Source: Sulfuricella denitrificans
GTDB taxonomy: Bacteria > Pseudomonadota > Gammaproteobacteria > Burkholderiales > Sulfuricellaceae
Assembly (NCBI GenBank): GCA_002632355.1
Contig: NSJJ01000002.1
Span: forward strand, 186,001-250,000
Reading direction: 5' to 3'
Length of the DNA stretch: 64,000 nt
The position numbers and the translations under genes are program-made. The notes under the pieces were generated by a model that was not told the DNA's origin, searched no databases, and saw nothing but the letters and a program-made list of their open reading frames with translations. Below, piece by piece: positions 26,401 through 39,625 of the stretch (the first letter of the stretch is position 1; every line of letters starts with the position of its first letter).

Positions 26401-28004
26401 GAGGATTTTTCCGAATGTTTGATCAGCAGGGCGATCGGCAACAGGCCCGCCAGCACAAGTGCCACAGAAGGTAGAGCAGCGCGCTCCCACTCTCCTTCCG
26501 AGGTCATTTCAAAAATGCGTACCGCCAGCGTATCCCAGCCGAAAGGGCGGGTCATCAGGGTGATCGGCATTTCCTTCATCACATCCACGAATACCAGTGC
26601 CGCCGCCGACAGCAGGCCGCCGCGCAGCAACGGAAGATGCACGCGGCGCAGCATGGCAAGGCCGGACACGCCCAGGCTGTGTGCCGCCTCGTCGAGGTTG
26701 CGGGTCACGCGCTGCATGGCGCTGTCGATCGGGTTGTAGCCTACGGCCAGGAAGCGCGTGAGATAGGCGGGCAACATGACCAGCAAGGTGCCCTGCAGGA
26801 TCAGGCCGGTATCGATCCCGATCCAGTTTCTGGCCGCACCGATCAACTGCTGATCGAGCCAGGCCAGCGGAATGACGATGCCCACCGCCAGAACCGGGCC
26901 GGGAACGGCATAGCCCAGTGTGGCAATCCGCGCCATGGTGCGCGTCCAGGCATCGTCGTGGCGGCGCTGGGCATAGGTCAGCACCAGCGCGGCAGCGACA
27001 ACCAGTGCGGCTGCCAGCCCGCCCAGCAGCAGTGAATGCCAGAGGAAATCCAGGTAACGCGCGTCGAAATCCTGCACCACGACTTTTTCTGCCCAGATCA
27101 GCAGTTGCACCAGCGGAATGACGAAAGCCACCAGCAGCACCAGGGCGGCAAACCCGCTGGCCAGCCAGGCGACGGATCCGCTCAGGACGATACTTTCCAT
27201 CCGGGTATGGCGTCCAGCCTGGGTGAAGCGCAAGCCACGGCGCGAAACCTGTTCAGCGGCAATCAGGGCGAACACCAGCAGAATCAGCACCGAAGCGAGC
27301 TGGGACGCGCCCTGCAGCGAAAACAAACCAAACCAGGTCTTGTAGATAGCCGTGGTAAAGGTGTCGTAATTGAACACTGCGACGGTGCCGAAATCGGCCA
27401 GCGTCTCCATCAGTGCCAGCATCAGTCCAGCCATGATCCAGGGCCGCGCCAGCGGCAGGGCCACCTTGAAAAACCCCGCCTTGCGACTGTAGCCCAGCGA
27501 TTGCGCCGCTTCCAGCGCGCGCCGCCCCTGCGTCAGGAAGGCATTGCGGGCCAGCAGATAAACATAGGGATACAGGGCCAGGCTCATCACCATGATCACC
27601 CCTCCGGCAGAGCGGATGGGCGGGAAAACCACCGGGCCGCCGGCCAGTTCACGCAGCCCGGTTTGCAGCGGCCCGGTAAAGTCAAGCAGGGCAACATAAA
27701 TGAAGGCCATGACATAGGCAGGCATGGCCAGCGGCAGCAGCAGTGCCCAGGAAAAAAACCGCCGCCCGGGGAATTCGCACACGGCAGTCAGCCAGGCCAG
27801 ACTGACGCCCAGCAGCGTGACGCCGACCGCCACCCCCACGACCAGGCGGAAAGTATTACTCAGCAAGCCGGGTAATACATGTTCCAGCAAGTGTTGCCAC
27901 ACCTCGCGCTCCGGGCTGAACACCGAAGCCAGCACCACCGCCAGCGGAACTATGATCAGGAGCGCGATGAAGGCAGCAGCCAGGCGCCAGCCGTGGCGTT
28001 TCAT
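26397..28004 (-). CDS. fbpB: Ferric-iron ABC transporter permease (fused two-domain)
   Basis: A 535-residue inner-membrane permease with two homologous halves, each of about six helices, as in FbpB/SfuB. Two EAA-type loops that contact the ATPase are visible: EAAQSLGYSRKAGFFKVALPL and DEAAHSLGVSGLAMLRRVHL. It lies between the binding protein and the ATPase with 4-bp overlaps on both sides, so the three genes form one operon for Fe(III) uptake from the periplasm. Confidence 0.93.
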   Translation of the reverse strand: MKRHGWRLAAAFIALLIIVPLAVVLASVFSPEREVWQHLLEHVLPGLLSNTFRLVVGVAVGVTLLGVSLAWLTAVCEFPGRRFFSWALLLPLAMPAYVMAFIYVALLDFTGPLQTGLRELAGGPVVFPPIRSAGGVIMVMSLALYPYVYLLARNAFLTQGRRALEAAQSLGYSRKAGFFKVALPLARPWIMAGLMLALMETLADFGTVAVFNYDTFTTAIYKTWFGLFSLQGASQLASVLILLVFALIAAEQVSRRGLRFTQAGRHTRMESIVLSGSVAWLASGFAALVLLVAFVIPLVQLLIWAEKVVVQDFDARYLDFLWHSLLLGGLAAALVVAAALVLTYAQRRHDDAWTRTMARIATLGYAVPGPVLAVGIVIPLAWLDQQLIGAARNWIGIDTGLILQGTLLVMLPAYLTRFLAVGYNPIDSAMQRVTRNLDEAAHSLGVSGLAMLRRVHLPLLRGGLLSAAALVFVDVMKEMPITLMTRPFGWDTLAVRIFEMTSEGEWERAALPSVALVLAGLLPIALLIKHSEKSS

Positions 28005-28999
28005 CTATAACCAGCCCGATCCATCAGCTTGACCGCTGTGGCCTGCAACTCGCCGGCCTTGGCGACATTCAAGGGATTCTGCTTGAAATTGCCCCATGCG
28101 GCCACGACCGGGTCGGTCTTGACGGCGGGGTTAACCGGGTATTCCATGTTCACATCAGCAAACAGGTTCTGCGCCGTTGTGGAAGACAGCCATTCCAGCA
28201 AAGCCACGGCTTCTTTCTCGTGCCTGGCGTGCTTGACCACGCCCGCACCGGAAACATTCACGTGCACGCCGCTACCCTGCTGGTTAGGCCAGAAAATCGA
28301 CAACGGCAGGCCGGCTTTCTTCTCCATCAGGCGCCCGAAGTAATAGGTATTGGCGATACCCACGTCACACTGCCCGGCGGCAATCGCTTCCAGCATCTTG
28401 GTGTCATCCGGGAACGGTTCTGTCGCGAGATTGGCGACCCAGGATTTAACGATCTGTTCTGTTTTAGCTTCGCCATGTTCGGCGATCATCATCGCCACCA
28501 GCGACTGGTTATACACCTTCTTGGAAGTCCGCAGGCACAGGCGGCCTTTCCACTTTGCATTTCCCAGATCTTCGTAGGTGGACAAATCGGCAGGTTTAAT
28601 CTTCTGGTTATTGTAGAACATGGTGCGCGCACGCACAGACAGGCCGAACCACTGATTGCCCGGATCGCGCAGATGTGCCGGCACATTGGCGTTCAGTGTC
28701 CGTGACTGCACGGGTTTGAGCAGATCCTCCCTGGCCGCCTCCCACAAGTTGCCGGCATCCACGGTAATCAGCATGTCGGCCGGAGTGTTCTGGCCTTCTG
28801 CCTTGAGGCGCTGCAGCAGCGCACCTTCCTTGTCGGTAATGAATTTGACCTGTACGCCGGTTTCCCTGGTGTAGGCGTCGAACAGCGGCTTGATGAGCTG
28901 CTCGTTGCGGGCGGAATAGACCACCACTTCGGCAGCACTGGCCGACGTGGCGGCAAGACAGAAGATGGTGCCTGCAAACAGGGTTCTGAGAATTTTCAT
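28001..28999 (-). CDS. fbpA: Periplasmic ferric-iron-binding protein
   Basis: A 332-residue FbpA/FutA-type binding protein. The signal peptide MKILRTLFAGTIFCLAATSA is cleaved near SASAAE. The mature start EVVVYSARNEQLIKPLFDAY is typical, and NTYYFGRL holds the paired tyrosines that bind Fe(III). The ATG at 28999, four codons inside the longest frame, has a GGAG site 9 nt upstream and was preferred. A Fur box lies inside the promoter. Confidence 0.94.
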   Translation of the reverse strand: MKILRTLFAGTIFCLAATSASAAEVVVYSARNEQLIKPLFDAYTRETGVQVKFITDKEGALLQRLKAEGQNTPADMLITVDAGNLWEAAREDLLKPVQSRTLNANVPAHLRDPGNQWFGLSVRARTMFYNNQKIKPADLSTYEDLGNAKWKGRLCLRTSKKVYNQSLVAMMIAEHGEAKTEQIVKSWVANLATEPFPDDTKMLEAIAAGQCDVGIANTYYFGRLMEKKAGLPLSIFWPNQQGSGVHVNVSGAGVVKHARHEKEAVALLEWLSSTTAQNLFADVNMEYPVNPAVKTDPVVAAWGNFKQNPLNVAKAGELQATAVKLMDRAGYR

Positions 29000-29041
29000 T
29001 GTGGTCTCCATGAAAAAGTTTCGATTAACTATTTGGAAACC

Positions 29042-29091
29042 ATTCTATTGCTAATGAGAATAATTATCAACCGTATTTGATAATTACTTTG
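29042..29091 (-). promoter_or_regulatory. fbpABC promoter with overlapping Fur box
   Basis: On the minus strand, TTGATA (29070-29065), a 17-bp spacer and TAGAAT (29047-29042) form a promoter. A Fur-like box, whose minus-strand sequence is TTGATAATTATTCTCATTAG (29070-29051), covers the -35 and spacer, the position expected for repression by Fe-Fur. A second similar half, TTTGATAATTAC, follows at 29076-29087 and may extend Fur binding. Confidence 0.75.
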
Positions 29092-29116
29092 TGTGCGATT
29101 AACAACCAAAAAGTTG

Positions 29117-29151
29117 TTGCATAGCAAATCATAATATTAGATAATTCTAAT
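29117..29151 (+). promoter_or_regulatory. Candidate promoter for the divergent small RNA
   Basis: TTGCAT (29117-29122), a 17-bp spacer and GATAAT (29140-29145) on the plus strand. The dyad ATTAGA-TAAT-TCTAAT (29136-29151) overlaps the -10 and the start point, where a repressor would act. The Fur boxes of fbpABC lie 30-65 bp upstream. Confidence 0.45.
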
Positions 29152-29260
29152 CTACACGGAAACGCTCATATCCCCTTTGAGATTTTTGTGTTGTCTCCTC
29201 CATCCTCCTTAATTTGGTGGATATTAGGCGCAGCCCGGAAACAGGCTGCGCTATTTTTTT
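29152..29260 (+). ncRNA. Candidate iron-linked small RNA, about 109 nt
   Basis: A promoter-like pair at 29117-29145 and a strong intrinsic terminator at 29228-29260 bound a transcript of about 109 nt on the plus strand with no ATG-started frame. No plus-strand gene precedes it for kilobases, so the terminator has no other obvious client. The middle holds a C/U-rich unpaired-looking run, TTGTCTCCTCCATCCTCCTT (29191-29210), complementary to Shine-Dalgarno sequences. This matches the general layout of Fur-controlled base-pairing RNAs (RyhB, NrrF, PrrF). No match to a known RNA is claimed. Confidence 0.5.
29228..29260 (+). terminator. Rho-independent terminator
   Basis: GCGCAGCC (29228-29235), an 8-nt loop and GGCTGCGC (29244-29251) form a perfect 8-bp GC-rich stem followed by TATTTTTTT. 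The U-tract is on the plus strand only, and both flanking genes (fbpA, rlmK-like) are on the minus strand. Confidence 0.85.
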
Positions 29261-29381
29261 GCCTGGCATAAATGCCACACACCATTTAGCGACAATAAAA
29301 CCGGATTTACTGTTTTATATTCATAAATGAAAACCACACATGCCCAAAGCCCTGATCCAAAACAAAGACGTGAAATTTGGG

Positions 29382-30326
29382 CTAGGGTTTATGAATTTGC
29401 CAGCAGTAGTGAATTTTCTTGTTGCGGAAATCGTCGGGAATGGTCCGGGAGGAAATATCCCTGACCTGGCCAGATGCCAGTGCGGATTCATCCAGCCTGA
29501 AGCTACGCAGATTGGTGGAAAAAAACAACTCACCGCCAGGTGCAAGCAATTCCAGGCAAGTATTTATCAGACGCGGATAATCGCGCTGCACGTCTAGCAC
29601 GCCCTGCATTTTCTTGGAATTGGAGAAGCTGGGCGGGTCCATCACGATGAGGTCGAATTTTTCCCCTGCGGCAATCGCCTGATCGAGATAGGCGAATACG
29701 TCTGCACGCACCAGCCGGTGCCGCTTCAGGTCCATGCCATTGAGCTCAAAATTACGCAGCGACCAATCCTGGTAGGTGTTGCTCATGTCCACCGTCACCG
29801 ATCCGGAAGCCCCGCCTGCAGCGGCATAAACGGTAAAGCTGCCGGTATAAGCAAACAGATTGAGAAAACGCTTGCCCGCCGCCCGTTCCTGCACCATGCG
29901 TCGCGTGATGCGATGATCAAGAAACAAGCCGGTATCAAGGTACGCCGTCAGATTGACGATAAAACGGTGCCCGCCCTCTTCCACCACGAAATCCTCACCC
30001 GTCGTGCCGGTTTTCTCATATTGGCTTTCGCCGCGCTGACGTGCTCGTAACTTGTAAATAACACGCTGCAACGGAAGTTCGAGCGCCTCTGCTGCATTCT
30101 GCCGAACCGATTCCACCCACTGCGCATGGGCTTCTTCAGGCATCTGCCAGCCCGTATCAAATTCCTGCAGATGCGCATGATCCCGGTAAATGTCTACCGC
30201 AAGCGGGAATTCAGGTACGTCGCGGTCATATACCCGATAGCAGGAAACTTCCTGCCGTCGTGCCCACTTAGCCCAGTGGCGGGCATTCTTGCGCAAGCGG
30301 TTGAAAAAAGCAGAAAAATCGGACAT
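29382..30326 (-). CDS. RlmK-like 23S rRNA methyltransferase (stand-alone)
   Basis: A 314-residue SAM methyltransferase matching the C-terminal half of E. coli RlmKL, the part that makes m7G2069. Shared features are FFNRLRKNARHWAKWARRQ, CYRVYDRDVPEFPLAVD, YLDTGLFLDHRITRRM, SAM motif FLNLFAYTGSFTVYAA and catalytic-type VMDPPSFSNSKKM. The RlmL half (THUMP plus m2G domain) is absent. I start it at MSDFSAFF (30326), which aligns with the family; an ATG 21 codons upstream adds unrelated residues. No clear ribosome-binding site is seen. Confidence 0.82.
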   Translation of the reverse strand: MSDFSAFFNRLRKNARHWAKWARRQEVSCYRVYDRDVPEFPLAVDIYRDHAHLQEFDTGWQMPEEAHAQWVESVRQNAAEALELPLQRVIYKLRARQRGESQYEKTGTTGEDFVVEEGGHRFIVNLTAYLDTGLFLDHRITRRMVQERAAGKRFLNLFAYTGSFTVYAAAGGASGSVTVDMSNTYQDWSLRNFELNGMDLKRHRLVRADVFAYLDQAIAAGEKFDLIVMDPPSFSNSKKMQGVLDVQRDYPRLINTCLELLAPGGELFFSTNLRSFRLDESALASGQVRDISSRTIPDDFRNKKIHYCWQIHKP

Positions 30327-30405
30327 ATGAAGGAAATAGTAATGGCAGGAAAGGCACGGAATCCTGGGCCATCCCTGCCATCCTGTCAAACGGGGCGAGT
30401 CCGCA

Positions 30406-30906
30406 TCAGTGCTTCATGCCCTTGTGATCGTGATCCATGGGCATCGGCATTGCCATTGCGGCCTGGGGCTTACGAACCTGCGCATCGAATTTCTTGCTGC
30501 TCCCATCCTCGAAGGTAATGCTGATAGCCACATTCTCCCCTTCCTTCAGCGGCTGCTTGAGATCGATCAGCATGATATGCAGACCACCGGGCTGGAGAGC
30601 GGTCTCTCCCTTGGCCTTGATTTCGATGTCCTTGACCGGGCGCATCTTCATCATGCCGCCCTCCATGGTATGGGTATGCAGCTCTGCCACCTTCGATACT
30701 GCGCTGTCGGCCTTGACCACCTTGTGATCCTTGTCATCGCTGTTCTTGAATACAACAAATGCGCCTGTAACCATCTGCCCCGGAGGCGCAAGGCGAACAT
30801 ATGGATCAACGGCCGACACGTTGTCGGCGGCACTTCCGGCTGCGAATGAGGGAATGGCAAAGACGAATGCTGCAGCGGTGGCAATACTCAGGATTGGTGA
30901 TTTCAT
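30406..30906 (-). CDS. Periplasmic copper chaperone PCu(A)C
   Basis: A 166-residue secreted protein with signal peptide MKSPILSIATAAAFVFAIPS. The Cu(I) site is read from H-T-M-EGGMMKMR and LHIMLIDLK, the H(M)X10MX21HXM pattern of the family. The C-terminus adds a Met/His-rich tail (AMPMPMDHDHKGMKH), common in copper donors. It probably delivers Cu(I) to cytochrome oxidase. The start at 30906 has an AAGGAG site; a much longer open frame upstream does not code for related protein. Confidence 0.9.
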   Translation of the reverse strand: MKSPILSIATAAAFVFAIPSFAAGSAADNVSAVDPYVRLAPPGQMVTGAFVVFKNSDDKDHKVVKADSAVSKVAELHTHTMEGGMMKMRPVKDIEIKAKGETALQPGGLHIMLIDLKQPLKEGENVAISITFEDGSSKKFDAQVRKPQAAMAMPMPMDHDHKGMKH

Positions 30907-38200: not shown

Positions 38201-38300
38201 AGTCGGTCTCTAACTGGTTAATGTCGGGGAATACGCAATTATAACGCCATATATACCGGTCGGTTGAATTTACACGCCATGGATCAATTTGGTGCCTCCC

Positions 38301-38326
38301 AAAAAAAACCCCGCCGGGTGGCGGGG
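38301..38326 (-). terminator. Rho-independent terminator of fccAB
   Basis: On the minus strand CCCCGCC-ACCC-GGCGGGG forms a perfect 7-bp stem (38326-38309) followed by eight T (38308-38301), 31 bp past the fccB stop. Confidence 0.9.
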
Positions 38327-38356
38327 CGAAAAAACGAAATACTTACTGAATTGGGC

Positions 38357-39625
38357 TCAGGAAGACATTTCGTGGAGGATATTTTTGATCCAGCTATGAG
38401 CGTAGACGCCTTCCAGTTCGGACAAGTCTGGAGACACCCCGCCCGAATTGGGCACGGCAATTGTTTTGCCCTCAGCGACCTTGTACACGGCGGATACCGA
38501 AATCGCTTCCTTGTCCGTGACATAGCTGTAGCAGACATTGACGTGCGATGGCGGGATCGGATCTTTGCCATTCATCAGCTGAACGACGTTGAGCGCACAC
38601 ACCTTGGCCTGCGAGTTGGCAGAATAGCCCGATTTCGGCATGGCCCCGGCACTGCAGGCATCACCGATCACATGCACGTTGGGCACAATGGAAGATTCGA
38701 AGGTGGTCTGATTCACCGGGCACCACTTCTTGTCTTCACCCACCACGCCAGCCATATAGGCTACCGCACCGGCCTTTTGGGGTGGCACCACGTTGATCAC
38801 GGCGCCTTTAACCTCTTCCACGCCGGTATCCACCGACATGGCTTTGTGATCCACCTTGGTCACCTTGTTGCTGGCGTGGAACTCGATCATGCCCTTGTAA
38901 TGCTTCTCCCAGGCCTTTTTGAACAGAGGTCCCTTGGAAACGATATCCGGATTGGCATCCAGGACAATGATCTTGGACTTGGGTTTGTGATTTTTGAGAT
39001 GCCAGGCAATCTGGCTAATACGCTCGTAGGGTCCGGGTGGGCAACGGAAAGGCGTCACCGGCACCGACAGCACGACTGTGCCGCCATCGGCCATATCCAC
39101 CAGCTGTTTGCGCAGGCGGAGCGTCTGCTCTCCGGCCTTCCAGGCGTGCGGCATATACTTCGGCGTTTCGACCGGATCGTAGCCTTCCAGTTCATCGAAG
39201 CGGAAATCAATGCCGGGAGACAGTACCAGCCTGTCATAGCTGATCGTGCCAGCGCCCACCTTGACCTGTTTTGCGGCCACATCGATGCCGGTCACTTCGT
39301 CATAAACCACCTGGATACCATGCTTTTCAGCAAGTTTATCGTAAGTGATCATGTTGTCCTTGAGATCACGGCTACCACCGATGACCAGATTGCTGAACGG
39401 GCAGGACACAAACGTCTTGTTGCGCTCGATCATCACCACTTCGATGGAAGGATCGCTCATGCGGATGTACTTGGAAACGATGGTGCCTCCGTAACCCCCC
39501 CCCACCACCACTACACGACGCCCTTTCTTGGGCAATATCTCACCTGCACGCGCGAGAACGGAAAAGCTTGTCGCGCTGAAGCCTGCGGCAATGCCGGCCA
39601 TTTGAATAAAATTTCTGCGATTCAT
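38357..39625 (-). CDS. fccB: Sulfide dehydrogenase flavoprotein subunit (flavocytochrome c)
   Basis: The FAD subunit of periplasmic flavocytochrome c sulfide dehydrogenase, 422 residues. A Tat signal (MNRRNFIQMAGIAAG) implies folded export with its cofactor. The FAD motif is VVVVGGGYGGT. C75 in FVSCPFSN matches the cysteine that binds FAD covalently. C195 (RCPPGPYER) and C365 (NVCYSYVT) fit the redox-active disulfide pair after allowing for the leader. It lies 10 bp after fccA and is closed by a strong terminator. Sulfide oxidation to sulfur is the expected reaction. Confidence 0.92.
   Translation of the reverse strand: MNRRNFIQMAGIAAGFSATSFSVLARAGEILPKKGRRVVVVGGGYGGTIVSKYIRMSDPSIEVVMIERNKTFVSCPFSNLVIGGSRDLKDNMITYDKLAEKHGIQVVYDEVTGIDVAAKQVKVGAGTISYDRLVLSPGIDFRFDELEGYDPVETPKYMPHAWKAGEQTLRLRKQLVDMADGGTVVLSVPVTPFRCPPGPYERISQIAWHLKNHKPKSKIIVLDANPDIVSKGPLFKKAWEKHYKGMIEFHASNKVTKVDHKAMSVDTGVEEVKGAVINVVPPQKAGAVAYMAGVVGEDKKWCPVNQTTFESSIVPNVHVIGDACSAGAMPKSGYSANSQAKVCALNVVQLMNGKDPIPPSHVNVCYSYVTDKEAISVSAVYKVAEGKTIAVPNSGGVSPDLSELEGVYAHSWIKNILHEMSS

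Follow-up and report, generated by a model that had tools for sequence, protein, structure and literature searches.

The window analysed here, a stretch of 64,000 nucleotides from Sulfuricella denitrificans, contains at positions 29117-29260 a promoter-like sequence and a terminator beside an iron-uptake operon, fbpABC, and the question is whether this segment encodes a small RNA (sRNA) and, if so, of which kind and under which control. An earlier note proposed an sRNA gene divergent from fbpABC and read the layout as that of an iron-responsive base-pairing RNA. We treat the gene, its family and its control as separate questions.

Layout, conservation and predicted fold

The putative gene lies on the plus strand. 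Its promoter would consist of a −35 hexamer (TTGCAT, 29117-29122), which opens a block kept within the organism's family, a spacer of 17 nt and a −10 hexamer (GATAAT, 29140-29145). A promoter element, ATATTAGATAATTCTAAT, extends over the −10 (29134-29151) and holds within it the dyad ATTAGATAATTCTAAT (29136-29151). Transcription, with its start placed from the position of the −10, would give an RNA of ~109 nt (29152-29260) that is predicted from its fold and from a model match. In the predicted fold a 5′ hairpin (29154-29191) is followed by an unpaired anti-Shine-Dalgarno stretch, CU site 1 (UGUCUCCUCC, 29192-29201), and by a small hairpin (29202-29222) whose loop and 5′ arm carry CU site 2 (CCUCCUU, 29204-29210); read directly from the sequence, the CU-rich run covers about 29192-29210. 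The RNA would end in an intrinsic terminator (29227-29260), composed of a stem (29227-29252) and then a U-tail, ATTTTTTT, reaching 29260. The terminator has no plus-strand gene upstream, the nearest gene being the open reading frame (ORF) of fbpA on the minus strand (28001-29011). Between the two, outside the sRNA gene, lies a Fur box (29050-29068, no strand assigned) that matches 16 of 19 positions of the consensus. The promoter, C/U run and terminator recorded in the earlier note thus stand in both sequence and coordinates, as do its dyad over the −10 and its Fur box near the promoter.

A simple pattern scan of 28000-30500 found no plus-strand promoter, TTGCAT fitting the −35 consensus at three of six positions, and terminators occurred at chance level (3, against a mean of 2.9 in shuffles). 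The scan lends no support and therefore the case for an sRNA gene rests on comparison. When 29095-29270 was used as the query of a DNA search, matches were found in 33 of 61 genomes, the window's own included; besides that genome, 6 of 7 genomes of the genus and 19 of 21 of the family were matched. The limits of these matches follow the predicted gene. Of the 19 same-family rows, 15 start at query base 13-23 (29107-29117), on the −35 or immediately ahead of it, and 17 stop at query base 131-137 (29225-29231), where the terminator lies. The core pattern was found in at least 118 stretches across genome contigs, and the titles available for 80 of these loci include Thiobacillus, Sulfuricella, Sulfurimicrobium, Chromobacterium and Vogesella. 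A search of plasmids gave no match to the sRNA locus.

We built an alignment and a covariance model from 42 sequences, hand-picked from 67 non-redundant sequences out of 105. The window's genus was left out on purpose, and none of the 42 is known to belong to it. The model finds 29150-29259 in the window with 71.5 bits (E 1.6e-22, these E-values being rough). Across the order it has matches in 135 of 200 genomes (83 of 108 genera), some of its training sequences coming from that order. A second match within the window (38300-38397, minus strand; 17.5 bits, E 5.8e-4) was rejected as the end of an ORF plus a terminator. The core is invariant or nearly so in the 42 aligned sequences, which is partly so by construction because most aligned loci were found by an exact core match; less biased signs of conservation are the rows of the DNA search, the matches to the Rfam family RF02278 described below and the loci found by their promoter element only, all of which run into the core. 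At the level of sequence, comparison lifts 29117-29260 above chance.

The 109-nt RNA is predicted to form three hairpins (z −3.9; none of 200 shuffles was as good). Both-sided changes occur at 6 of 11 consensus pairs in the 42 sequences, all of them in the terminator stem. The 5′ hairpin varies in sequence and was not recovered by RNAalifold on the 42-sequence alignment, and for this reason single folds were compared with shuffles instead. It closes in 56 of 57 non-redundant leaders (the exception is L119), with a median z of −4.4, against 1146 of 2850 shuffles; this is a lenient test, given that 40% of shuffled leaders close, and the leaders were chosen by their promoter element.

Membership of a published sRNA family

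A cmscan of the whole window at Rfam cut-offs gave no match. A permissive scan of 29080-29300 recovered a full-length match to RF02278 (Betaproteobacteria toxic sRNA) at 29192-29259 on the plus strand, such that CU site 1 coincides with the first positions of the family; the match scores 46.3 bits (E 1.4e-8), the gathering score being 50. The loci of relatives score higher: 13 of the 16 given to cmscan exceed the gathering score, the three below it being L028, L038 and L109, and loci over the cut-off within the genus are L002 (52.0 bits) and L004 (57.8 bits). We treat the window copy as of the RF02278 type because 13 of 16 relatives pass, though its own score is below the cut-off. Moreover, the predicted fold has the traits of the family, namely two CU-rich unpaired stretches complementary to ribosome-binding sites and a small hairpin that precedes a terminator hairpin with a U-tail. 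We are therefore confident, if short of certain, that 29117-29260 holds an sRNA gene of the RF02278/S17 type, the RNA of which would block the ribosome-binding sites of several mRNAs. The gene is very probably real, widely conserved and of a published kind, as judged by comparison of sequences; conservation, fold and family match likewise bear out, as a predicted sRNA, the transcript of about 109 nt with a C/U run complementary to ribosome-binding sites that the earlier note had drawn.

The window's genome holds one clear copy of RF02278 and a 31.5-bit match at C27:105694-105750 on the minus strand (L150). The latter begins some 50 bases beyond an ORF resembling an ammonium transporter, as named by sequence reading, and is perhaps a 3′ UTR RNA. 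No meaning is attached to the two weakest rows from this genome, because 11 of 14 control genomes also match at E up to 1, none of them over the cut-off.

Published accounts offer several systems for comparison. One is S17 of Bordetella pertussis, whose promoter reads TTGCAT-17-TACTAT; RNase E is reported to cleave this RNA where its CU core begins, and the RNA to depend on Hfq and directly repress a target (PMC11722255). By its published description S17 shares with the window sRNA the TTGCAT-17 promoter, a long 5′ part, a CU core with a small hairpin and the terminator behind it, and complementarity of sites 1 and 2 to ribosome-binding sites; the core is conserved across Betaproteobacteria. 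It differs in length (190 nt for S17L, ~109 nt predicted here), in its Bvg-linked expression and in adjoining coq7. This longer architecture of the S17 type may be discerned in the window sRNA, as modelled, from the predicted fold and its 5′ hairpin. The double-hairpin 'toxic' RNAs of RF02278 in Burkholderia cenocepacia, ncS03, ncS05, ncS27 and ncS62 (PMC5688073), resemble the window sRNA in their UGUCUCCUCCA start, their two CU-rich unpaired stretches and their two hairpins; of ncS27 there is also a longer form, which undergoes processing. Overproduction of ncS27 is reported to slow growth (PMC5688073), and S17 is described as not similarly toxic in E. coli (PMC11722255). B. cenocepacia has several RF02278 copies per genome, whereas the window's genome has the one clear copy and the 31.5-bit match. 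The NmsR siblings of Neisseria (PMC5362039) have CU-rich anti-Shine-Dalgarno stretches, a 5′ hairpin and a terminator in common with the window sRNA; they differ in being tandem siblings linked to RelA, and the NmsRb model (RF02877) scores 25.5 bits against a cut-off of 52 on 29080-29300. Lastly, BrrF/ncS63 (PMC7377471) and NrrF (RF01416) are comparable as iron-linked sRNAs of Betaproteobacteria, BrrF differing in being described as a fragment cleaved off the hemP mRNA end (PMC7377471).

Gene neighbourhood and alternative readings

Among the 118 core loci listed, rplM lies just downstream in 51, dnaE just upstream in 38, both in none and neither in 29; of these 29, eight have a right flank and four a left flank of less than 700 bases. 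There is no fbp gene within 2.5 kb in any of the 118, within the flanks covered. An adjoining fbpA is confined to the window and the congener G005 among the loci that could be oriented (140 of 148 and 182 of 190); in the neighbour and Fur-box surveys a genome may be counted under two or more locus ids. Six congeners have the sRNA. In four of them (G001, G003, G004 and G006) dnaE is directly upstream of it, in G005 fbpABC stands between dnaE and the sRNA as it does in the window, and in G007 neither dnaE nor fbpABC occurs within ~2 kb. Most simply, fbpABC would have been inserted later between dnaE and the sRNA in the window's species and one congener; this is the simplest reading because the order dnaE-sRNA occurs in other families too.

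The best-surviving alternative is that the RNA is iron-responsive and repressed by Fur, in the manner of NrrF, RyhB, PrrF or BrrF, and switched on under iron limitation through either the Fur box of fbpA or the −10 element. We consider this unlikely, at long odds that already take the Fur likeness of the −10 element into account. FbpA is by sequence a ferric-iron binding protein (best match 7li0_A, E 2.8e-124), and the Fur box at 29050-29068 was scored, like all others here, against a 19-base consensus; most simply, it is that of fbpABC. It is not kept with the sRNA in relatives, and its distance from the −35 is 48 bp in the window versus 192 bp in G005. Scored as a Fur box, the −10 element itself matches at 12 of 19 positions in the window and at 14 of 19 among its congeners, in L002, L005, L093 and L188, an uncommon score level, there being six places in the whole window with at least 13 of 19. 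We read this likeness as weak because the −10 hexamer itself supplies six of the 12-14 matches. Other elements near the −10 reach 15 of 19 in L086 and L127, and 61 of 146 loci attain at least 12 matches within 250 bases upstream of the core. A further point in favour of Fur is that the leader of a gene for an HdrC-like Fe-S protein is a predicted target with partly conserved complementarity. Against it, the NrrF model scores 12.8 bits on 29080-29300, far from its cut-off of 60, and in B. cenocepacia no significant response to low iron was seen for ncS03, ncS05 and ncS27, conditions under which ncS63/BrrF rose 53-fold (PMC5688073, Table 2). The neighbourhood weighs in the same direction: the link to iron is weak because the sRNA of relatives is mostly not beside an iron-uptake operon. 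Iron or Fur control as the earlier note envisaged it is thus disfavoured, together with its reading of the layout, whilst its expectation of a conserved sRNA upstream of fbpA in relatives holds for the sRNA and fails for fbpA, which is mostly not the neighbour.

Less probable still is that the element acts in cis, either as the tail of a transcript from upstream (from dnaE, in most relatives) or as the leader of a downstream gene (rplM), its terminator and CU run having their effect there. The frequency with which dnaE ends just upstream or rplM starts just downstream would suit such an arrangement. However, the core has a promoter-like element ahead of it in the dnaE and rplM settings alike, a terminator stands before rplM, the same core is found with dnaE, rplM or neither as its neighbour, and no plus-strand gene of the window reads into the sRNA. 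That the arrangement is due to chance and yields no transcript, for which the chance-level pattern scan could be cited, is contradicted by the conservation, the covariation of the terminator, the kept 5′ hairpin and the match to a curated RNA family, and can be set aside almost entirely.

Promoter elements, distant relatives and a proposed role

An sRNA gene of the RF02278/S17 type thus remains the preferred reading, and its promoter has features of its own. Among 300 genomes of the order, 24 (from 9 of 134 genera) contain a strict form of the element, ATATTAGANNATNCTNATRAC, as a single copy, and in all 24 this copy leads into the sRNA gene. The window's genome is not among them because its own copy differs near the end of the element. 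At the strictness used we did not find a shared operator: a looser pattern run against the window's genome gave one other site, with one mismatch. A looser form, TATTAGANNATNCTNAT, is present in 56 of the 118 loci listed, of which 31 are of the dnaE type and one of the rplM type. Conversely, GCRNNGCACAA, which may resemble PhaR sites, stands just before the −35 in 36 of the 51 rplM-type loci and in no dnaE-type locus. Some of the conservation may be owed to the −10, the start region and the 5′ hairpin. Chromobacterium and its relatives (L056, L057, L086, L108, L120 and L127) have a different palindrome-like sequence, of the form ATACCGATAATCGGTAT, over the −10 some 55 bases ahead of the core.

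The family also extends beyond the order. At E ≤ 0.001, RF02278 matches 78 of 276 genomes from the class, three of which (that of the window and two more) belong to the order, and none of the 14 control genomes, E. coli included; two of the 276 exceed the cut-off, both of the order. All 15 outside-order loci given to cmscan match RF02278, each under the cut-off. In 21 of 27 loci read, rplM begins 163-422 bases after the start of the match, and all 21 are among the 26 labelled as of the same class; 21 of 26 is not a rate for all matches because the loci read were better-scoring ones, the 20 added stretches being likewise better-scoring RF02278 rows. These loci, 27 of 29 of which could be oriented (L154 and L161 could not), include L155-L160 and L264-L282. 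The promoter element is visible by eye in six outside-order loci (L156, L160, L268, L274, L275 and L280). From these similarities of sequence, shared descent of the sRNAs within and outside the order appears likely.

Two further observations concern these matches. Two or three RF02278-like matches lie side by side in L264 (1202-1262 and 1333-1394, minus strand) and in G219, G293 and G312. In L274, 1391-1466 on the minus strand also matches the Rfam family ncS54 (36.2 bits, cut-off 43), a possible distant relative.

The comparisons show a conserved gene, its architecture and its family match, and the studied relatives (S17, the double-hairpin RNAs of B. cenocepacia and the NmsRs) suggest how the RNA might work. 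A sigma-70-like promoter with the conserved element over its −10 would, by analogy with those relatives, produce an RNA of ~109 nt. The 5′ hairpin would shield the 5′ end and the intrinsic terminator would provide the U-tail, leaving UGUCUCCUCC and the CU loop of the small hairpin open between them. Either the full RNA or a product shortened by a cut directly ahead of UGUCUCC, as studied relatives would lead one to expect, may then pair with the purine-rich ribosome-binding sites of several mRNAs and block their translation, probably with Hfq, repression and Hfq dependence being reported for S17.

Target sites in the window's own genome are indistinguishable from ordinary Shine-Dalgarno sites, whose expected counts they match. 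Searches with two ribosome-binding-site patterns yielded 18 and 20 sites, compared with 3 in each case once the pattern was reversed, and 15 of the 38 sites (14 genes) lead into an ORF of at least 60 aa. Two genes named by sequence reading provide leads: the leader of the HdrC-like gene keeps GGAGAC in 17 of 21 loci, and that of a rhodanese-like gene shows inconsistent complementarity over 13 rows. Both leaders are putative targets.

The sRNA family is already published. What is new here is the promoter element specific to this gene and the relatives upstream of rplM outside the order. In the open-licence literature we found neither the outside-order relatives nor the gene-specific promoter element, nor the core sequence, nor anything relevant on an sRNA upstream of rplM.

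Taken together, these data move the gene away from the iron reading and into a published sRNA family. We give roughly even chances to the broader proposal that the family named for Betaproteobacteria is one ancient sRNA gene across the class (Gammaproteobacteria in the GTDB sense), placed directly upstream of rplM in many lineages within and outside that group and beside dnaE in others; in the dnaE group its promoter would bear an element absent from the rest of those genomes, so that a dedicated regulator, or a strict constraint on the promoter, governs a general brake on translation start. The 5′ hairpin, the gene-specific promoter element and the rplM and dnaE neighbourhoods offer handles for finding the controlling signal, and the full-length architecture is a basis for a family model that reaches beyond Betaproteobacteria.
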